A DNA stretch of 64,000 nucleotides, from positions 1,736,001 through 1,800,000 of the forward strand of contig NZ_WKJO01000001.1 in the NCBI RefSeq assembly GCF_009674605.1, in the 5' to 3' direction. Source of the DNA: Haloferax litoreum (lineage in GTDB: Archaea > Halobacteriota > Halobacteria > Halobacteriales > Haloferacaceae). Shown piece after piece: positions 27,042-53,734 of this stretch; position 1 is the stretch's first letter; every line of letters begins with the position of its first letter. Below the pieces are notes generated by a model. That model saw only the letters and a program-made list of their open reading frames with translations. It did not search any database and was not told the DNA's origin. Made by a program: the position numbers and the translations under genes.

Positions 27042-29294
27042 ATGACACTCGAGGACGACGCTCGGGAGTACCACCGCAAGGACCCGCCCGGAAAGATAGA
27101 GATTGCGACGACGAAACCGACGAATACACAACGAGACCTGAGTCTCGCCTACTCTCCCGGGGTGGCCGCGCCGTGTCTCGATATCGCGGACGAACCCACA
27201 CTCGCGTACGAGTACACGGCGAAGGGGAACCTCGTCGGCGTCGTCTCGAATGGCTCTGCGGTCCTCGGCCTCGGCGACATCGGCGCGCAGGCGTCCAAGC
27301 CAGTCATGGAGGGCAAGGGCGTCCTGTTCAAACGCTTCGCCGACATCGACGTGTTCGACGTGGAGTTCGACATCGCCGACCCCGAGGCATTCGTCGAGAG
27401 CGTCGCCGCGATGGAACCGACGTTCGGGGGCATCAACCTCGAAGACATCAAAGCGCCGGAGTGCTTCGAAATCGAACAGCGACTCGGTGAGAAGATGGAC
27501 ATCCCCGTCTTCCACGACGACCAGCACGGCACGGCCATCATCTCCGGTGCCGCCCTGCTCAACGCCGTCGAAATCGCCGACAAGGACCTCTCTTCCCTCG
27601 ACGTGACGTTCGCCGGGGCGGGTGCTGCGGCGACGGCGACGGCCCGGTTCTACGTCTCGCTCGGCATCCCTCACGAGAACATCACCATGTGCGACATCGA
27701 CGGTATCCTCTCGGAGTCGCGTGCCGAGGCGGGCGAACTCAACGAGTACACCGAACCGTTCGCTCGTGGGGTCGAAGACGGGTCTCTCGAAGACGCGATG
27801 GAGGGTGCAGACGTATTCGTCGGCCTCTCCGTCGGCGGTATCGTCTCCCAAGCGATGGTCCGGTCGATGGCCGACGACCCAATCATCTTCGCGATGGCGA
27901 ACCCGGACCCCGAAATCACCTACGAGGATGCGAAGGACGCTCGTGACGATACGGTCATCATGGCGACGGGTCGCTCTGACTACCCGAATCAGGTGAACAA
28001 CGTCCTCGGGTTCCCGTTCATCTTCCGCGGCGCACTCGACGTGCGGGCGACGGAGATCAACGAGGCGATGAAGCGCGCCGCCGCCGAGGCGCTTGCACAC
28101 CTCGCTCGACAAGACGTGCCCGACGCCGTCGTCAAAGCTTACGGTGACGAACCGTTACAGTTCGGTCCCGACTACCTCATCCCCAAACCGCTCGACCAGC
28201 GCGTCCTCTACGAGGTGACGCCAGCGGTGGCGAAGGCGGCCATGGAAAGCGGGGCCGCCCGTCTCGAACGCGACTTGGCGGCGTATCGCGAGGAACTCGA
28301 AGCGCGTCTCGGGAAGTCCCGCGAGATGATGCAAGTCGTCCTCAACAAGGCGAAGTCGAACCCCAAGCGCGTCGCTCTCGCCGAGGGGGAAGACGAGAAG
28401 ATGATTCGCGCGGCCTACCAGATGCAGGAGGAGGGAATCGCCGAACCGATTCTCATCGGCGGAACGCGACGGATTCTCCGGAAAGCAGAAGCCCTCGGCC
28501 TCGACTTCGACCCGACTATCGCCAACCCACACGACGGCGACTGGAGTCACTACGCCGACCACCTCTACGAGAAGCGACAGCGGAACGGCCTCACCCGCGT
28601 CGAAGCGGGCGAACTCGTCGGACAGGACTCCGATTACTTCGCCAGCGTCATGGTCGATATCGGCGACGCCGACGCGATGCTCACGGGCCTGACCCATCAC
28701 TACCCGTCGGCGCTCCGTCCGCCGTTGCAGGTCGTCGGCACGGCCGACGACGCGAACTACGCCGCCGGCGTCTACATGCTGGCGTTCAAGAACCGCGTCG
28801 TCTTCTGCGCCGACGCGACGGTCAATCTCGACCCGGACGAGGAAGTCCTCGCCGAAGTCACCAAACACACGGCCGAACTGGCCCGTCGGTTCAACGTCGA
28901 ACCGCGCGCCGCACTCTTGTCGTACTCGGACTTCGGCAGTGTGGACAACGACGGGACGCGAAAACCACGGAACGCGGTGAAACGCCTCCACAACGACCCA
29001 GAGGTGGACTTCCCCGTCGACGGTGAGATGCAAGCCGACACAGCACTCGTCGAGGAGATGCTCACCGGGACGTACGAGTTTTCGGACCTCGACGAACCGG
29101 CGAACGTCCTCGTGTTCCCGAACCTCGAAGCGGGCAACATCGGCTACAAACTCCTCCAGCGCCTCGGTGGCGCAGAGGCCATCGGTCCGATGCTCGTCGG
29201 CATGGGCAAACCTGTGCACGTCCTCCAGCGCGGTGACGAAGTGAAGGACATCGTCAATCTAGCGGGAGTGGCCGTCGTCGACGCACAGGAGTAA
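27042..29294 (+). CDS. maeB: NADP-dependent malic enzyme with phosphotransacetylase-like domain
   Basis: Oxidative decarboxylation of malate to pyruvate with NADP. It is 750 aa: malic enzyme N-terminal domain with [14 protein letters not shown] (about residues 34-48), catalytic [19 protein letters not shown], the metal-binding [14 protein letters not shown] (about 160), a Rossmann segment [16 protein letters not shown] (about 190), then from about residue 425 a phosphotransacetylase-like domain ([19 protein letters not shown]...). In bacterial MaeB the PTA-like part is regulatory, sensing acetyl-CoA. An in-frame GTG at 27033 exists, but the ATG at 27042 fits the family. Monocistronic. Secure. 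Confidence 0.95.
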
Positions 29295-29370
29295 GGTCCC
29301 CCGACGACGGCGTCGCTCTTCGCCACCGACGGGACCACCGTTCCCCCGACGAATACGTCACGCAGAAGTC

Positions 29371-29380
29371 ATTTATGGTG
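29371..29380 (+). promoter_or_regulatory. TATA box of the CPBP protease gene
   Basis: ATTTATGGTG is centred 28 bases before the ATG at 29402. The in-frame ATG at 29375 falls within this box, so 29402 is preferred as the translated start. Confidence 0.55.
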
Positions 29381-30812: not shown

Positions 30813-31358
30813 ATGGAAAATAAAACCAACATATCTCGGCGGAAACTCCTTCGAGGAGTCGGTGTCGCGGCGACACTCGCGGCGCTTCCGGTGGGGACGG
30901 CAGTGGGACAGACGGCGAAGAGCAAGTACGACGACGAGGATGGAAACGGCATCCCCGACGAGGGAGAGGTCGTCACGGGGACGTACAAGTCGGTCTACGC
31001 GTACGACGCCAACGGGGACTGGTACTGGGACCTCGGTGACGGGCGTGTCCAAGGCACTGTGGGCGGCGTGGACGAACTGGACCAAGAGACGCTGACGGTC
31101 TGTGACTACAAGGTCCAGTACCGTGGGTCGTTCGAGAACGACCCGTTCCTCGACTCTGGGTGGGTTCGAAACAACATCAACTGCAAGGGGTACGACGACA
31201 ACGGGAACTACAACTACCTCATCATCCACAAGACGGACCCACGGTACACCGGGAACCGTCCCCCGGCGTTCGGTGGCGACTGGGAATACTTCGTCGACGT
31301 CGAAAGCAAACTCGGGAACAAACTGGTGCGGCCACAGAACCCGCCGGGTCAAAACTGA
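30813..31358 (+). CDS. Tat-exported protein of unknown function
   Basis: A 181-residue protein with a clear twin-arginine signal peptide: NISRRKLLRGVG then AATLAALPVGTAVGQ, cleavage predicted after about residue 33. The mature part starts with DEDGNGIPDEGEVVTG, a Ca2+-binding-loop-like acidic stretch, and has two Cys (VCDYK and NCKGYD), aromatic-rich repeats (DANGDWYWDLGDG) and no transmembrane tail. Secreted in folded form, as most haloarchaeal exported proteins. Family not recognised. An AT-rich 217-base divergent gap lies upstream, with TTATCA about 33 bases before the ATG. A hairpin/T-tract element begins 100 bases downstream (31458). Confidence 0.75.
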   Translation: MENKTNISRRKLLRGVGVAATLAALPVGTAVGQTAKSKYDDEDGNGIPDEGEVVTGTYKSVYAYDANGDWYWDLGDGRVQGTVGGVDELDQETLTVCDYKVQYRGSFENDPFLDSGWVRNNINCKGYDDNGNYNYLIIHKTDPRYTGNRPPAFGGDWEYFVDVESKLGNKLVRPQNPPGQN

Positions 31359-31457
31359 ACGGGTCGTGTCTCGGTCACGACCGTACCACTCTGGTCGTTT
31401 TTACACTCGTCTCGTTGCTCACCGGAGTGTTGGCGGAGAGTACGTCATCGGTTGTAC

Positions 31458-31549
31458 CGCGAGACGAACGAAGTGAGTCTTCGCGGCCTTTTTGGTCCAG
31501 ATTTTTCGAGGAGAGGTTCCCGCAGGACAGTCAAGCTGTCCGAGGAACC
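31458..31549 (+). repeat. Hairpin - double T-tract - hairpin element, copy 1
   Basis: Hairpin with arms CCGCGAGAC/GTCTTCGCGG (one bulge), then CCTTTTTGG, TCCAGATTTTT, then a nested hairpin (GGTTCC/GGAACC outside, GGACAG/CTGTCC inside). The same layout and core letters occur on the minus strand at 53146-53224. In both cases the element follows a gene for an exported protein, on that gene's strand, as expected of a tandem transcription terminator or a mobile palindromic repeat. Confidence 0.7.
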
Positions 31550-31567
31550 CGACGGTGAAAAAGGTGG

Positions 31568-31592
31568 AGTGGGACCGCTGAGCGTCGAGCCC
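31568..31592 (-). repeat. Partial copy of the tRNA-Pro 3' end
   Basis: AGTGGGACCGCTGAG is identical to 31735-31749, which covers the tRNA-Pro 3' end, and the likeness continues with GTCGA after one mismatch. It lies about 168 bases downstream of the tRNA's own 3' end in the sense of its transcription. That is where the far attachment site of an integrated element would be expected after most of the element was lost. Confidence 0.5.
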
Positions 31593-31637
31593 GGAAGTCG
31601 CAGCTGACGAGCGGAGCGAGGAAGACCGTCTTCCGAC

Positions 31638-31652
31638 GTTCGACTCTCAGCG
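31638..31652 (+). repeat. Inverted tRNA-Pro T-arm fragment
   Basis: GTTCGACTCTCAGCG exactly matches the T-loop and T-stem of tRNA-Pro but in the opposite orientation. Together with the copy at 31568-31592 it forms an inverted repeat, so the region may also fold as one long hairpin. Confidence 0.45.
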
Positions 31653-31736
31653 TTGTGACGAATTCACTCGACGCAGTTTATTTCTCGCCGGAGTCCTAGG
31701 ACTCACGGCTCGAAGGGTTGCGTCGAGAGAAATTAG

Positions 31737-31807
31737 TGGGACCGCTGAGAGTCGAACTCAGGTCCTACCGACCCCATCGGCAGAGGATACCACTACCCCA
31801 CGGTCCC
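31737..31807 (-). tRNA. tRNA-Pro, anticodon GGG
   Basis: A 71-base cloverleaf on the minus strand, including discriminator A. The acceptor stem pairs GGGACCG with CGGTCCC. The anticodon stem is TGCCG/CGGTA with loop ATGGGGT, giving anticodon GGG and G37 (typical of proline). The T-arm is CTGAG-TTCGACT-CTCAG. No intron and no encoded CCA. The D-arm is GGGGTAGTGGTATCCT. A TTAACC-type promoter element lies about 38 bases upstream (31839-31850). Partial copies of its 3' half lie just beyond its 3' end. Confidence 0.95.
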
Positions 31808-51853: not shown

Positions 51854-53101
51854 TTACTCCCACGGGACCGAGCGCTCGGTCAGTTCGCCTTCGAGGTTCC
51901 GCCCCATGGCACCCGCCGGGTCCGAGTGGTTCGCGAGCGCCCACATGAGTTTCACCTTCGCGGTGCCGGGGAGGGTGTCACCTGCTTCGACGACGCCCGC
52001 GTCGAGGAGGTCACGACCAGTGTCGTAGACGCGGTCACAGACGCGGCCTTCGAGACACTGCGAGGTCATGACGACGACGGTGCCGTCCTCGACGAGTTCC
52101 TCGATTCGCGGGATGAGGTCGGTGTGGATGTGCCCGAGACCCGTGCCCTCGATGACGAGGCCCGCTTTGCCGTCGAGGTAGTCGAGGACGGCGGGGTCCA
52201 TCCCGGGCGTGAACTTCACGAGTTCGACGCCGGATTCGAGGCCAGCGTTGAGTGCGAGTTCCTGTTCGTCGCGAGCGGTGTAGTCGCGACGGAACGTGAC
52301 TTCTTCAGCCTCGTAGTCGACTTCGCCGAGCGGTTTCGCACCGATGGTCTGGAAGGCATCGCGACGCGAGGTGTGGTTCTTGCGGACGCGAGTCCCTTCG
52401 TGGAGGGCGCACACGTCGTCGGACTCGGAGCCGTGCATGCAAATCATGACCTCCGCGGCGTCGGCCTTGGCGGCCTCGACGGCGCAGACGGCGTTCATCA
52501 CGTTGTCGGAAGACGGCCGATCCGCCGAGCGTTGACTGCCCGTGAAGACGATGGGAACGGGGGTGTCGAGCATGAACGACATCGCCGACGCGGAGAACTG
52601 CATCGTGTCGGTTCCGTGCATGACGACGACGCCGTCGGCACCCGCCTCGATTTCCTCGGCGATGGCCTCCGCGAGGTCGACCCACACGTCGGTCGTCATG
52701 TTCTCGGAGAGGATGTTGGCGACGACCCGCCCGCGGTAGTTCGCGCGTCCGGCGAGGTCCGGCACGGCGCGAAGCACGTCTTCGGCGTCGAACTGCGCCG
52801 TCACGGCACCGGTTCGGTAGTCAACCGTCGATGCGATGGTCCCGCCGGTGGAGATGAGCGAGATAGTCGGGAGGTCTTCGTCGAACTCGATTTCGGAGGT
52901 TCCGTCGCTGTCGGACTGTGCGTCTTCGATGTCGTAGACGTCCGTCTCCAGTACGTCGACGTCCGCATCGTCGAGCTCGATGCCGACGTTGTAGCCGCCG
53001 TCGAGTTTGACGACGAGGTACTCGTCGGTCGAAGAGGGCATCAAGACACCTTCGTTCGTGACGCCCGCGTTGGTTACGCGGACGCGGTCCCCTGCGTTCA
53101 T
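51854..53101 (-). CDS. gatD: Glutamyl-tRNA(Gln) amidotransferase subunit D
   Basis: Asparaginase-like subunit of the archaeal GatDE complex; releases ammonia from glutamine to convert Glu-tRNA(Gln) to Gln-tRNA(Gln). It is 415 aa. The N-terminal domain (MNAGDRVRVTNAGVTNEGVL) resembles a beta barrel. The asparaginase domain has SLISTGGTIASTVDYRTGAV (about residues 82-100, first catalytic Thr), VVMHGTDTMQFSASAM (about 168, second Thr and Asp) and NHTSRRDAF (about 240). The start at 53101 is the conserved M-N-A-G-D; a longer in-frame ORF runs into the palindromic element at 53146. GatE is not in the window. Confidence 0.95.
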   Translation of the reverse strand: MNAGDRVRVTNAGVTNEGVLMPSSTDEYLVVKLDGGYNVGIELDDADVDVLETDVYDIEDAQSDSDGTSEIEFDEDLPTISLISTGGTIASTVDYRTGAVTAQFDAEDVLRAVPDLAGRANYRGRVVANILSENMTTDVWVDLAEAIAEEIEAGADGVVVMHGTDTMQFSASAMSFMLDTPVPIVFTGSQRSADRPSSDNVMNAVCAVEAAKADAAEVMICMHGSESDDVCALHEGTRVRKNHTSRRDAFQTIGAKPLGEVDYEAEEVTFRRDYTARDEQELALNAGLESGVELVKFTPGMDPAVLDYLDGKAGLVIEGTGLGHIHTDLIPRIEELVEDGTVVVMTSQCLEGRVCDRVYDTGRDLLDAGVVEAGDTLPGTAKVKLMWALANHSDPAGAMGRNLEGELTERSVPWE

Positions 53102-53145
53102 ATCGCGGGATACCGCGGGGTCAGACTTCAAACCCACCTTTTTAT

Positions 53146-53224
53146 CGGAGGGGTGGCTGAGCCACCCCTCCGACAAAAATCTGGAGGGAAAAAGGCCGAG
53201 AGGCTCGCGATGCTCGCCTCTCGG
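53146..53224 (-). repeat. Hairpin - double T-tract - hairpin element, copy 2
   Basis: Read on the minus strand: hairpin CCGAGAGGC/GCCTCTCGG (53196-53224), then CCTTTTT, TCCAGATTTTT, then a long hairpin with 13-base arms CGGAGGGGTGGCT/AGCCACCCCTCCG (53146-53172). Layout and central letters match copy 1 at 31458-31549, while the hairpin arms differ. It follows the lipoprotein gene (ends 53318) on that gene's strand and lies 45 bases ahead of gatD. The strong hairpins could stop transcription between these genes. Confidence 0.75.
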
Positions 53225-53317: not shown

Positions 53318-53734
53318 CTATACTTCTACTGTCTCCTCGTCGACCTCGCCACTCGATTCGACTCGCAAAACCGTGGATTCGTAGTCTTGAATGGTGTCGC
53401 TGTAGGCTTCTTGCCCGTCTACGTACAGGGTGACGTCACAGGTTTCGGCGTCGGCCTCTCGTCTGAGTGTTTTCCCTTCACCCGGTCGTATCTCGAATTC
53501 TTCGTCTCGGCATCCCGCGTCCAACACAACCGCTCCAGAGAACGCTGGACTCACGAACACTCTCAGCATCTCAGAGCCCTCACACAGTTGGTACGGGCCG
53601 CATTCGTCTGTCGTCTCGGCGTCATCCTCGGAACGTCGAGTAGATGCATCACTCGTACAACCGGAGAGAGCGACGAGCGAGCCAGCAACCGCGAGAACCC
53701 GTCTGCGTTTCACACTGTTACAGTCGACTGACAT
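53318..53734 (-). CDS. Predicted lipoprotein of unknown function
   Basis: A 138-residue exported protein. The signal is MSVDCNSVKRRRVLAVAGSL with a twin- to triple-arginine stretch, then VALSGCTSD: L-S-G-C is a lipobox, so the mature protein probably begins at the Cys (about residue 27). The mature part is acidic, with a Cys pair (ECGPYQLCEG) and two more Cys (DAGCRDEE; ETCDV) that could form disulphides outside the cell. It looks like a small beta domain. Family not recognised. The start is set by the signal peptide; the longer in-frame ORF is antisense to the neighbour. The hairpin/T-tract element lies downstream. Confidence 0.78.
   Translation of the reverse strand: MSVDCNSVKRRRVLAVAGSLVALSGCTSDASTRRSEDDAETTDECGPYQLCEGSEMLRVFVSPAFSGAVVLDAGCRDEEFEIRPGEGKTLRREADAETCDVTLYVDGQEAYSDTIQDYESTVLRVESSGEVDEETVEV

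Follow-up and report, generated by a model that had tools for sequence, protein, structure and literature searches.

Two short segments of a 64,000-nucleotide stretch of Haloferax litoreum DNA (the window), at 31458-31549 on the plus strand and 53146-53224 on the minus strand, had been proposed in a sequence-only reading to be copies of one element, in which a hairpin is followed by CCTTTTT, a conserved linker with a second T-tract, and another hairpin. This raises the question of what the element is and what it does where it lies. The shared architecture is real: the pattern CCTTTTTN{1,14}ATTTTT occurs 2 times in the window, compared with 0.00 expected from 100 shuffles. The core and hairpins H1 and H2 had been correctly recognized, but the right arm had been overlooked: this is AAAAAGGTGG, and it pairs with TCCA..TTTTT. 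The two copies and their neighbors in the window are as follows.

30813-31358, plus strand: open reading frame upstream of copy 1, exported (Tat-like signal), no Pfam match
31457-31486, plus strand: copy 1, hairpin H1 (CCGCGAGACG..TCTTCGCGG)
31487-31506, plus strand: copy 1, core CCTTTTT-GG-TCCAGATTTTT, comprising T-tract 1 (CCTTTTT, 31487-31493), linker and T-tract 2, with TCCAGATTTTT at 31496-31506
31507-31557, plus strand: copy 1, hairpin H2 with internal loop GAG..GGT/ACC-CGA
31558-31567, plus strand: copy 1, right end AAAAAGGTGG; the minus strand reads CCACCTTTTT, a T-tract for leftward transcription
31570-31590, plus strand: copy of the tRNA-Pro 3' end (19/21 nt), 2 nt beyond the right end of copy 1
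31736-31807, minus strand: tRNA-Pro (GGG), converging on copy 1
51854-53101, minus strand: gatD (GatD_N and asparaginase domains), start codon 32 nt past the right end of copy 2
53134-53143, minus strand: copy 2, right end AAAAAGGTGG
53144-53174, minus strand: copy 2, hairpin H2, stem near-perfect
53175-53195, minus strand: copy 2, core CCTTTTT-CCC-TCCAGATTTTT (CCTTTTT 53195-53189, then CCC, then TCCAGATTTTT 53185-53175)
53196-53224, minus strand: copy 2, hairpin H1 (CCGAGAGGCGAGC..GCCTCTCGG)
ending at 53318, minus strand: exported open reading frame without a Pfam match, upstream of copy 2

In both copies, TCCA-GA-TTTTT pairs across H2 with AAAAA-GG-TGG(A) of the right end, so that each copy forms one long hairpin whose stem is broken by a 2x2 internal loop, with an extra T-tract ahead of it. 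Both copies fold far better than their shuffles (z -3.5 for copy 1, z -8.2 for copy 2). The hairpin arms had been said to share no sequence; this holds for H2 but was overstated for H1 (CCGCGAGACGAAC versus CCGAGAGGCGAGC). The family to which the two copies belong, which we call E, has the consensus [hairpin H1]-CCTTTTT-nn(n)-CCAnnTTTTT-[hairpin H2]-AAAAAnnTGG. Its members span 55-150 bp, with optional hairpins H0/H1, the CCTTTTT tract, a conserved linker, and CCA-nn-TTTTT paired via H2 with AAAAA-nn-TGG.

Across the whole 3.56 Mb genome, CCTTTTTN{1,5}TCCAGATTTTT occurs exactly twice, both times within the window (reversed-pattern control, 0), and the looser CCTTTTTN{2,15}TTTTT finds the same two sites only. 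Beyond this genome the core recurs well above chance: CCTTTTTN{1,8}CCAGATTTTT is present in 21 of 170 genomes of the family with no match to the reversed control, and the looser CCTTTTTN{1,8}CCANNTTTTT in 147 of 391 genomes of the class, with the control in fewer than 10. Lineages have their own dialects of the core, among them GGTCCAGATTTTT, CGCCCACGTTTTT (Haloarcula-like), GATCCACATTTTT and CCCCAAGTTTTT. Among exact core matches in named genomes, 63 of 68 are haloarchaeal; the other five (L071, L077, L125, L126, L133) come without the right end and are attributed to chance. A viral origin was rejected, as searches of viral contigs returned 0 and 1 exact matches and the single match lacks the rest of the element.

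A covariance model (A1/R1) built from 40 elements matched copy 1 at 31487-31567 (R1, 66.1 bits) and copy 2 at 53194-53134 (R1, 55.1 bits). It found 8 copies in the genome of the window and 6-14 copies in 13 of the other 14 Haloferax species, with none in the remaining one (G032). Across the phylum, 31 of about 43 sampled haloarchaea had matches, and none were found in about 204 non-haloarchaeal genomes. No Rfam family matched the window above its gathering threshold. Within the open literature, a search by topic returned no description of E, GGTCCAGATTTTT was absent, and texts containing TCCAGATTTTT or CCCACGTTTTT concerned unrelated subjects; E may have been described outside that literature. 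E is a widespread, haloarchaea-only family of short folded elements at gene edges, apparently undescribed.

The proposal that the core is kept by sequence and the flanks by pairing was borne out by covariation. In A1, 86% of cells are paired in the named structure, 90 cells carry double changes compared with 39 expected from shuffles, and the covariation score is 0.244, compared with 0.076 for shuffled alignments and 0.04-0.12 for slid versions of the structure. E thus covaries beyond shuffles, as a structured RNA or single-stranded DNA element does. The CCA/TGG and TTTTT/AAAAA pairs are invariant within A1 while the H2 arms covary, and GAG..GGT/ACC-CGA, a possible tandem G.A, is recurrent. 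Orthologous copies upstream of gatD have had their H2 arms swapped wholesale with pairing retained. The dialects L371 (G193), L378 (G170) and L368-L370 (G195) read AAAAAGGTCG or AAAAAGGTCC at the right end, where the left has CGA or GGA instead of CCA; each change is compensated by one on the opposite side, which further supports the CCA/TGG pairing. In H2, G-T oppositions outnumber A-C oppositions (94 versus 41, counted with a crude stem caller that found too few H1 stems), which favors a folded plus-strand transcript. T1, T2 and the A-tract have the same length in 127 of 152 copies, mostly as a property of lineage (within-genome P 0.05-0.1); a triple helix suggested by this equality was set aside, since the equality is mostly lineage-wide.

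Three loci (L170 in G025, L191 in G026, L195 in G029) carry an extra hairpin pair, near CTGTGAGACGCG..CTCACG, exactly inside the linker, separating TCCA from the second T-tract, as though this linker were itself an insertion site.

We examined the position of E relative to genes using an uncurated codon-model caller on 118 elements, 87 of which have no flanking repeat. In 50 of these 87 repeat-free copies a converging stop codon lies 0-8 nt past GGTGG, and in another 16 a start codon lies 32-47 nt past it, which is space for a leaderless promoter and little more; a few adjoin tRNAs. Anchoring on the right is sharp; distances to genes on the left are broad. Both window copies do follow an exported orphan gene on the same strand, as the sequence-only reading had observed, but this does not hold as a general rule and is incidental, because in most other Haloferax species divergent genes flank copy 2, which lies upstream of gatD, and copy 1 directly adjoins tRNA-Pro in several relatives. 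The full element upstream of gatD is readable in 13 of 15 Haloferax species; it is interrupted in G025, and its right end alone remains in G032.

In the genome of the window, a piece of about 165 bp (31570-31735) intervenes between copy 1 and tRNA-Pro. It opens with the tRNA 3'-end copy and holds inverted repeats, and comparable pieces lie beside this tRNA in further Haloferax species (L190, L191), hinting at a second kind of tRNA-end insert.

Neither the sharp right boundary nor the duplications of gene ends described here had been noticed in the sequence-only reading. A direct repeat common to the two 300 bp flanks was present at 36 of 152 elements, compared with 2 of 152 in each of the shifted-position and inverted controls; these statistics mix related loci, and independent events are fewer than copies. 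The repeats are 24-180 bp long and variable, and usually correspond to the 3' end of the left gene, stop codon included, or to the 5' end of an opposite-strand gene. We refer to this gene end as X and to its copy on the right as X'. In 32 of the 36 cases, X' begins 0-9 nt past GGTGG, and the junction typically consists of 3 nt found before the left repeat as well, then 1-2 additional nt (mostly C or T), and then the remainder. Four of the 6 further model copies in the genome of the window have an X', at an Elp3-like gene, etfA, pheT and a gene ending ..FVFEDDF (names judged from protein ends). Throughout Haloferax, X' accompanies 59 of 94 copies, at about 9 genes that several species have in common with an identical junction; the shuffled-pair control of 10 is inflated by pairs from the same gene. 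X' copies were also seen at apparently the same genes in other families (L018, L045, L063, L064, L082, again judged from protein ends), and tandem X-E-X-E arrays are common (L045, L283-L285, L371). At a single gene, X and X' show 98% identity within species as opposed to 91% between species, so that X' evolves in concert with the gene; this excess is small or absent at 3 of the 6 genes compared. In some Haloferax species X' is decayed or missing.

A maeB-like gene end in the window (..VVDAQE*, 29291-29380) has no element behind it; the same gene in about 8 other Haloferax species has an element with a gene-end copy (L253, L267-L269, L284, L293, L294, L297, L299).

Natural empty and filled sites were found at gyrA. 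In G178, G206 and G203, a single gyrA end is followed by intergenic DNA; in G266, G279, G302 and G220, an allelic gyrA end is followed by E and then by the native gyrA end as an orphan. Since X' here is the displaced native end, this event joined two alleles rather than copying one. Three Halorubrum-like genomes contain 10-24 related dispersed copies, the closest 97-99% identical, with a fixed right end and a modular, variable left end; three further genomes of the genus lack such copies. The REP-like dispersal suggested earlier fits, in that E is multicopy, modular, dispersed and lineage-specific. In one of these genomes (G104, L361-L365), a second dispersed palindromic module of about 90 bp (..GGCGCGCCACCGC..) lies left of the copies and also occurs alone, forming REP/BIME-like mosaics.

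We consider it somewhat better than even, at roughly 55%, that E is a haloarchaeal 3'-end element resembling a bidirectional terminator, that it disperses, and that its right end is a breakpoint hotspot; here we infer both termination and the mechanism. The sequence-only reading had offered a tandem terminator, a 3'-UTR structure or a REP-like element, and had considered the conserved TCCAGATTTTT unaccounted for by termination alone. The terminator function suggested earlier fits the T-tracts, which face outward on both strands, and the stop codons 0-8 nt off the right end. Rightward transcripts would stop at H1-CCUUUUU plus the second U-tract, and leftward transcripts at stop-CCACCUUUUU; a two-way 3'-end signal of this kind would explain why E is kept between genes and beside promoters. 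As a counterpoint, copy 2 in its usual setting between divergent genes has no annotated gene that needs a terminator, and T-tracts can terminate transcription with no constant linker, which leaves room for a mainly protein-binding role.

The E hairpin would also act as a breakpoint for DNA synthesis. The fixed junction lies at the base of the inverted repeat CCA..TGG, where a nascent strand that has just copied this repeat could fold off and re-prime up- or downstream. Resuming 24-180 bp upstream in the gene via about 3 nt of local homology would yield gene-X-E-X' and tandem X-E-X-E arrays, whereas forward jumps would remove the DNA ahead as far as the next stop codon or promoter, which would account for a right side cut back to these points. 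Template switching at E is a model drawn from the junctions. New loci would arise, at least in some cases, when DNA is exchanged with a relative carrying a gene end plus E, as at gyrA. More tentatively, and with the balance against it, E may define a new class of haloarchaeal gene-boundary element, a structured two-way 3'-end signal that reshapes gene ends, spreading with a copy of a gene 3' (or 5') end and leaving the old end behind GGTGG, with units kept across species (maeB, pheT, etfA) and some across families.

The best-surviving alternative, though an unlikely one, is that E is a conserved bidirectional terminator and nothing else, with gene-end copies as by-products of homologous exchange and tandem duplication. 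Its position at gene ends, the tandem arrays and the allelic exchange at gyrA all fit this, and termination at T-stretches (T5C, 95% termination) and at some hairpins is known in vivo in H. volcanii (PMC7237163). Ordinary exchange would fix no end, however, and the junction lies within 0-9 nt of GGTGG in 32 of 36 cases at many unrelated genes; the lineage-specific dispersal in three Halorubrum-like genomes also argues against it.

We regard it as improbable that E is instead mobilized by an enzyme generating long target-site duplications, whether as a retroelement or as a REP-like element with a Y1 transposase. The fixed right and variable left ends of the Halorubrum-like copies, the long direct repeats and the natural empty sites would suit such an element. 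Enzyme-driven movement is disfavored because no reverse transcriptase (RVT_1) was found in 18 haloarchaeal genomes and no Y1 (TnpA-REP) transposase in G000, G104, G110 and G195, several of which are E-rich. Conversely, Y1 is present without an E match in G032 and in G098, a Haloquadratum-like genome (genus inferred) with many Y1 copies, and the left copy at gyrA is an allelic gene end rather than a target duplicate.

Slightly less probable again is a functional X' that forms a regulatory unit with E, for example as the template of an antisense RNA ending at CCACCUUUUU, or through a triple helix of the U-tracts and A-tract that stabilizes the mRNA end. X' does recur at the same genes across Haloferax and in other families, and the tract lengths are equal in most copies. 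Yet in some species X' has degenerated or is absent, array turnover accounts for its similarity to X, and the link between tract lengths is largely a property of whole lineages; at gyrA X' is simply the displaced native end. Because X' comes immediately after E, a guide-RNA arrangement with E as scaffold and X' as guide was also considered, and was rejected, as X' at gyrA is the contiguous native end, its length varies, and no common preceding motif was seen. That the two window copies are alike by coincidence, a thought prompted by there being just two exact copies in their own genome, is ruled out for practical purposes by the genome counts, the shuffles, a class-wide family with controls near zero (0 for the family-wide core) and the covariation.

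How haloarchaea mark transcript ends and separate converging genes is only partly understood. H. volcanii allows direct tests of a class-wide, strongly conserved element that has a defined consensus, covariation support, a putative 3'-end role and 6-14 copies per Haloferax genome. Gene-end copies at a fixed junction, together with empty sites and arrays, also offer a trackable case of short non-coding repeats that spread and reshape gene ends, in several genomes where neither RVT_1 nor a Y1 transposase was found.

Compared with known systems, E shares with archaeal terminators a T-tract that lies 3' of a gene and is frequently preceded by a hairpin. Like the Haloferax T-stretch terminators (T5C motif, upstream hairpins; Berkemer et al., 2020, PMC7237163), it places a GC-rich hairpin and then a T-tract 3' of genes, with T-tracts on both strands; unlike them, it has two T-tracts with a fixed linker (GGTCCAGA and its dialects), a second hairpin closed by an A-tract, dispersed copies, and gene-end duplications at a fixed junction. 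E resembles bacterial REP/BIME sequences in being short, palindromic, intergenic, dispersed, modular and near gene ends, but in contrast to REP/RAYT systems the core is conserved rather than the palindrome, the gene-end repeats are long, and the element is restricted to an archaeal class. Set beside non-LTR-like retroelements, which have a fixed 3' end, a variable 5' end and variable target duplications, E shows a fixed right end, left ends that follow module borders, and repeats that are partly allelic. MITEs require the terminal inverted repeats of a transposon and a short fixed target duplication; the outer ends of E form no simple whole-element inverted repeat, and its direct repeats are 24-180 bp and variable. 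The PATEs, SMRs and MITEs of Haloquadratum walsbyi (PMC3119063) are, like E, short, non-coding, dispersed haloarchaeal elements with palindromes, but the PATEs and SMRs make no target duplications. Elements carrying tyrosine integrases at gene or tRNA 3' ends likewise restore the gene end with a new copy and leave the old end as a fragment beyond the insert, but the E insert is gene-free and measures 55-200 bp, its target genes are many and unrelated, and its right end is constant. Finally, in the deletion-coupled insertions of Haloquadratum (PMC3119063), allelic or foreign DNA is likewise placed base-precisely by an unexplained mechanism. E events differ in having one homologous and one fixed boundary plus a gene-end copy. 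The two may be related events, and E may bear on these insertions in haloarchaea.
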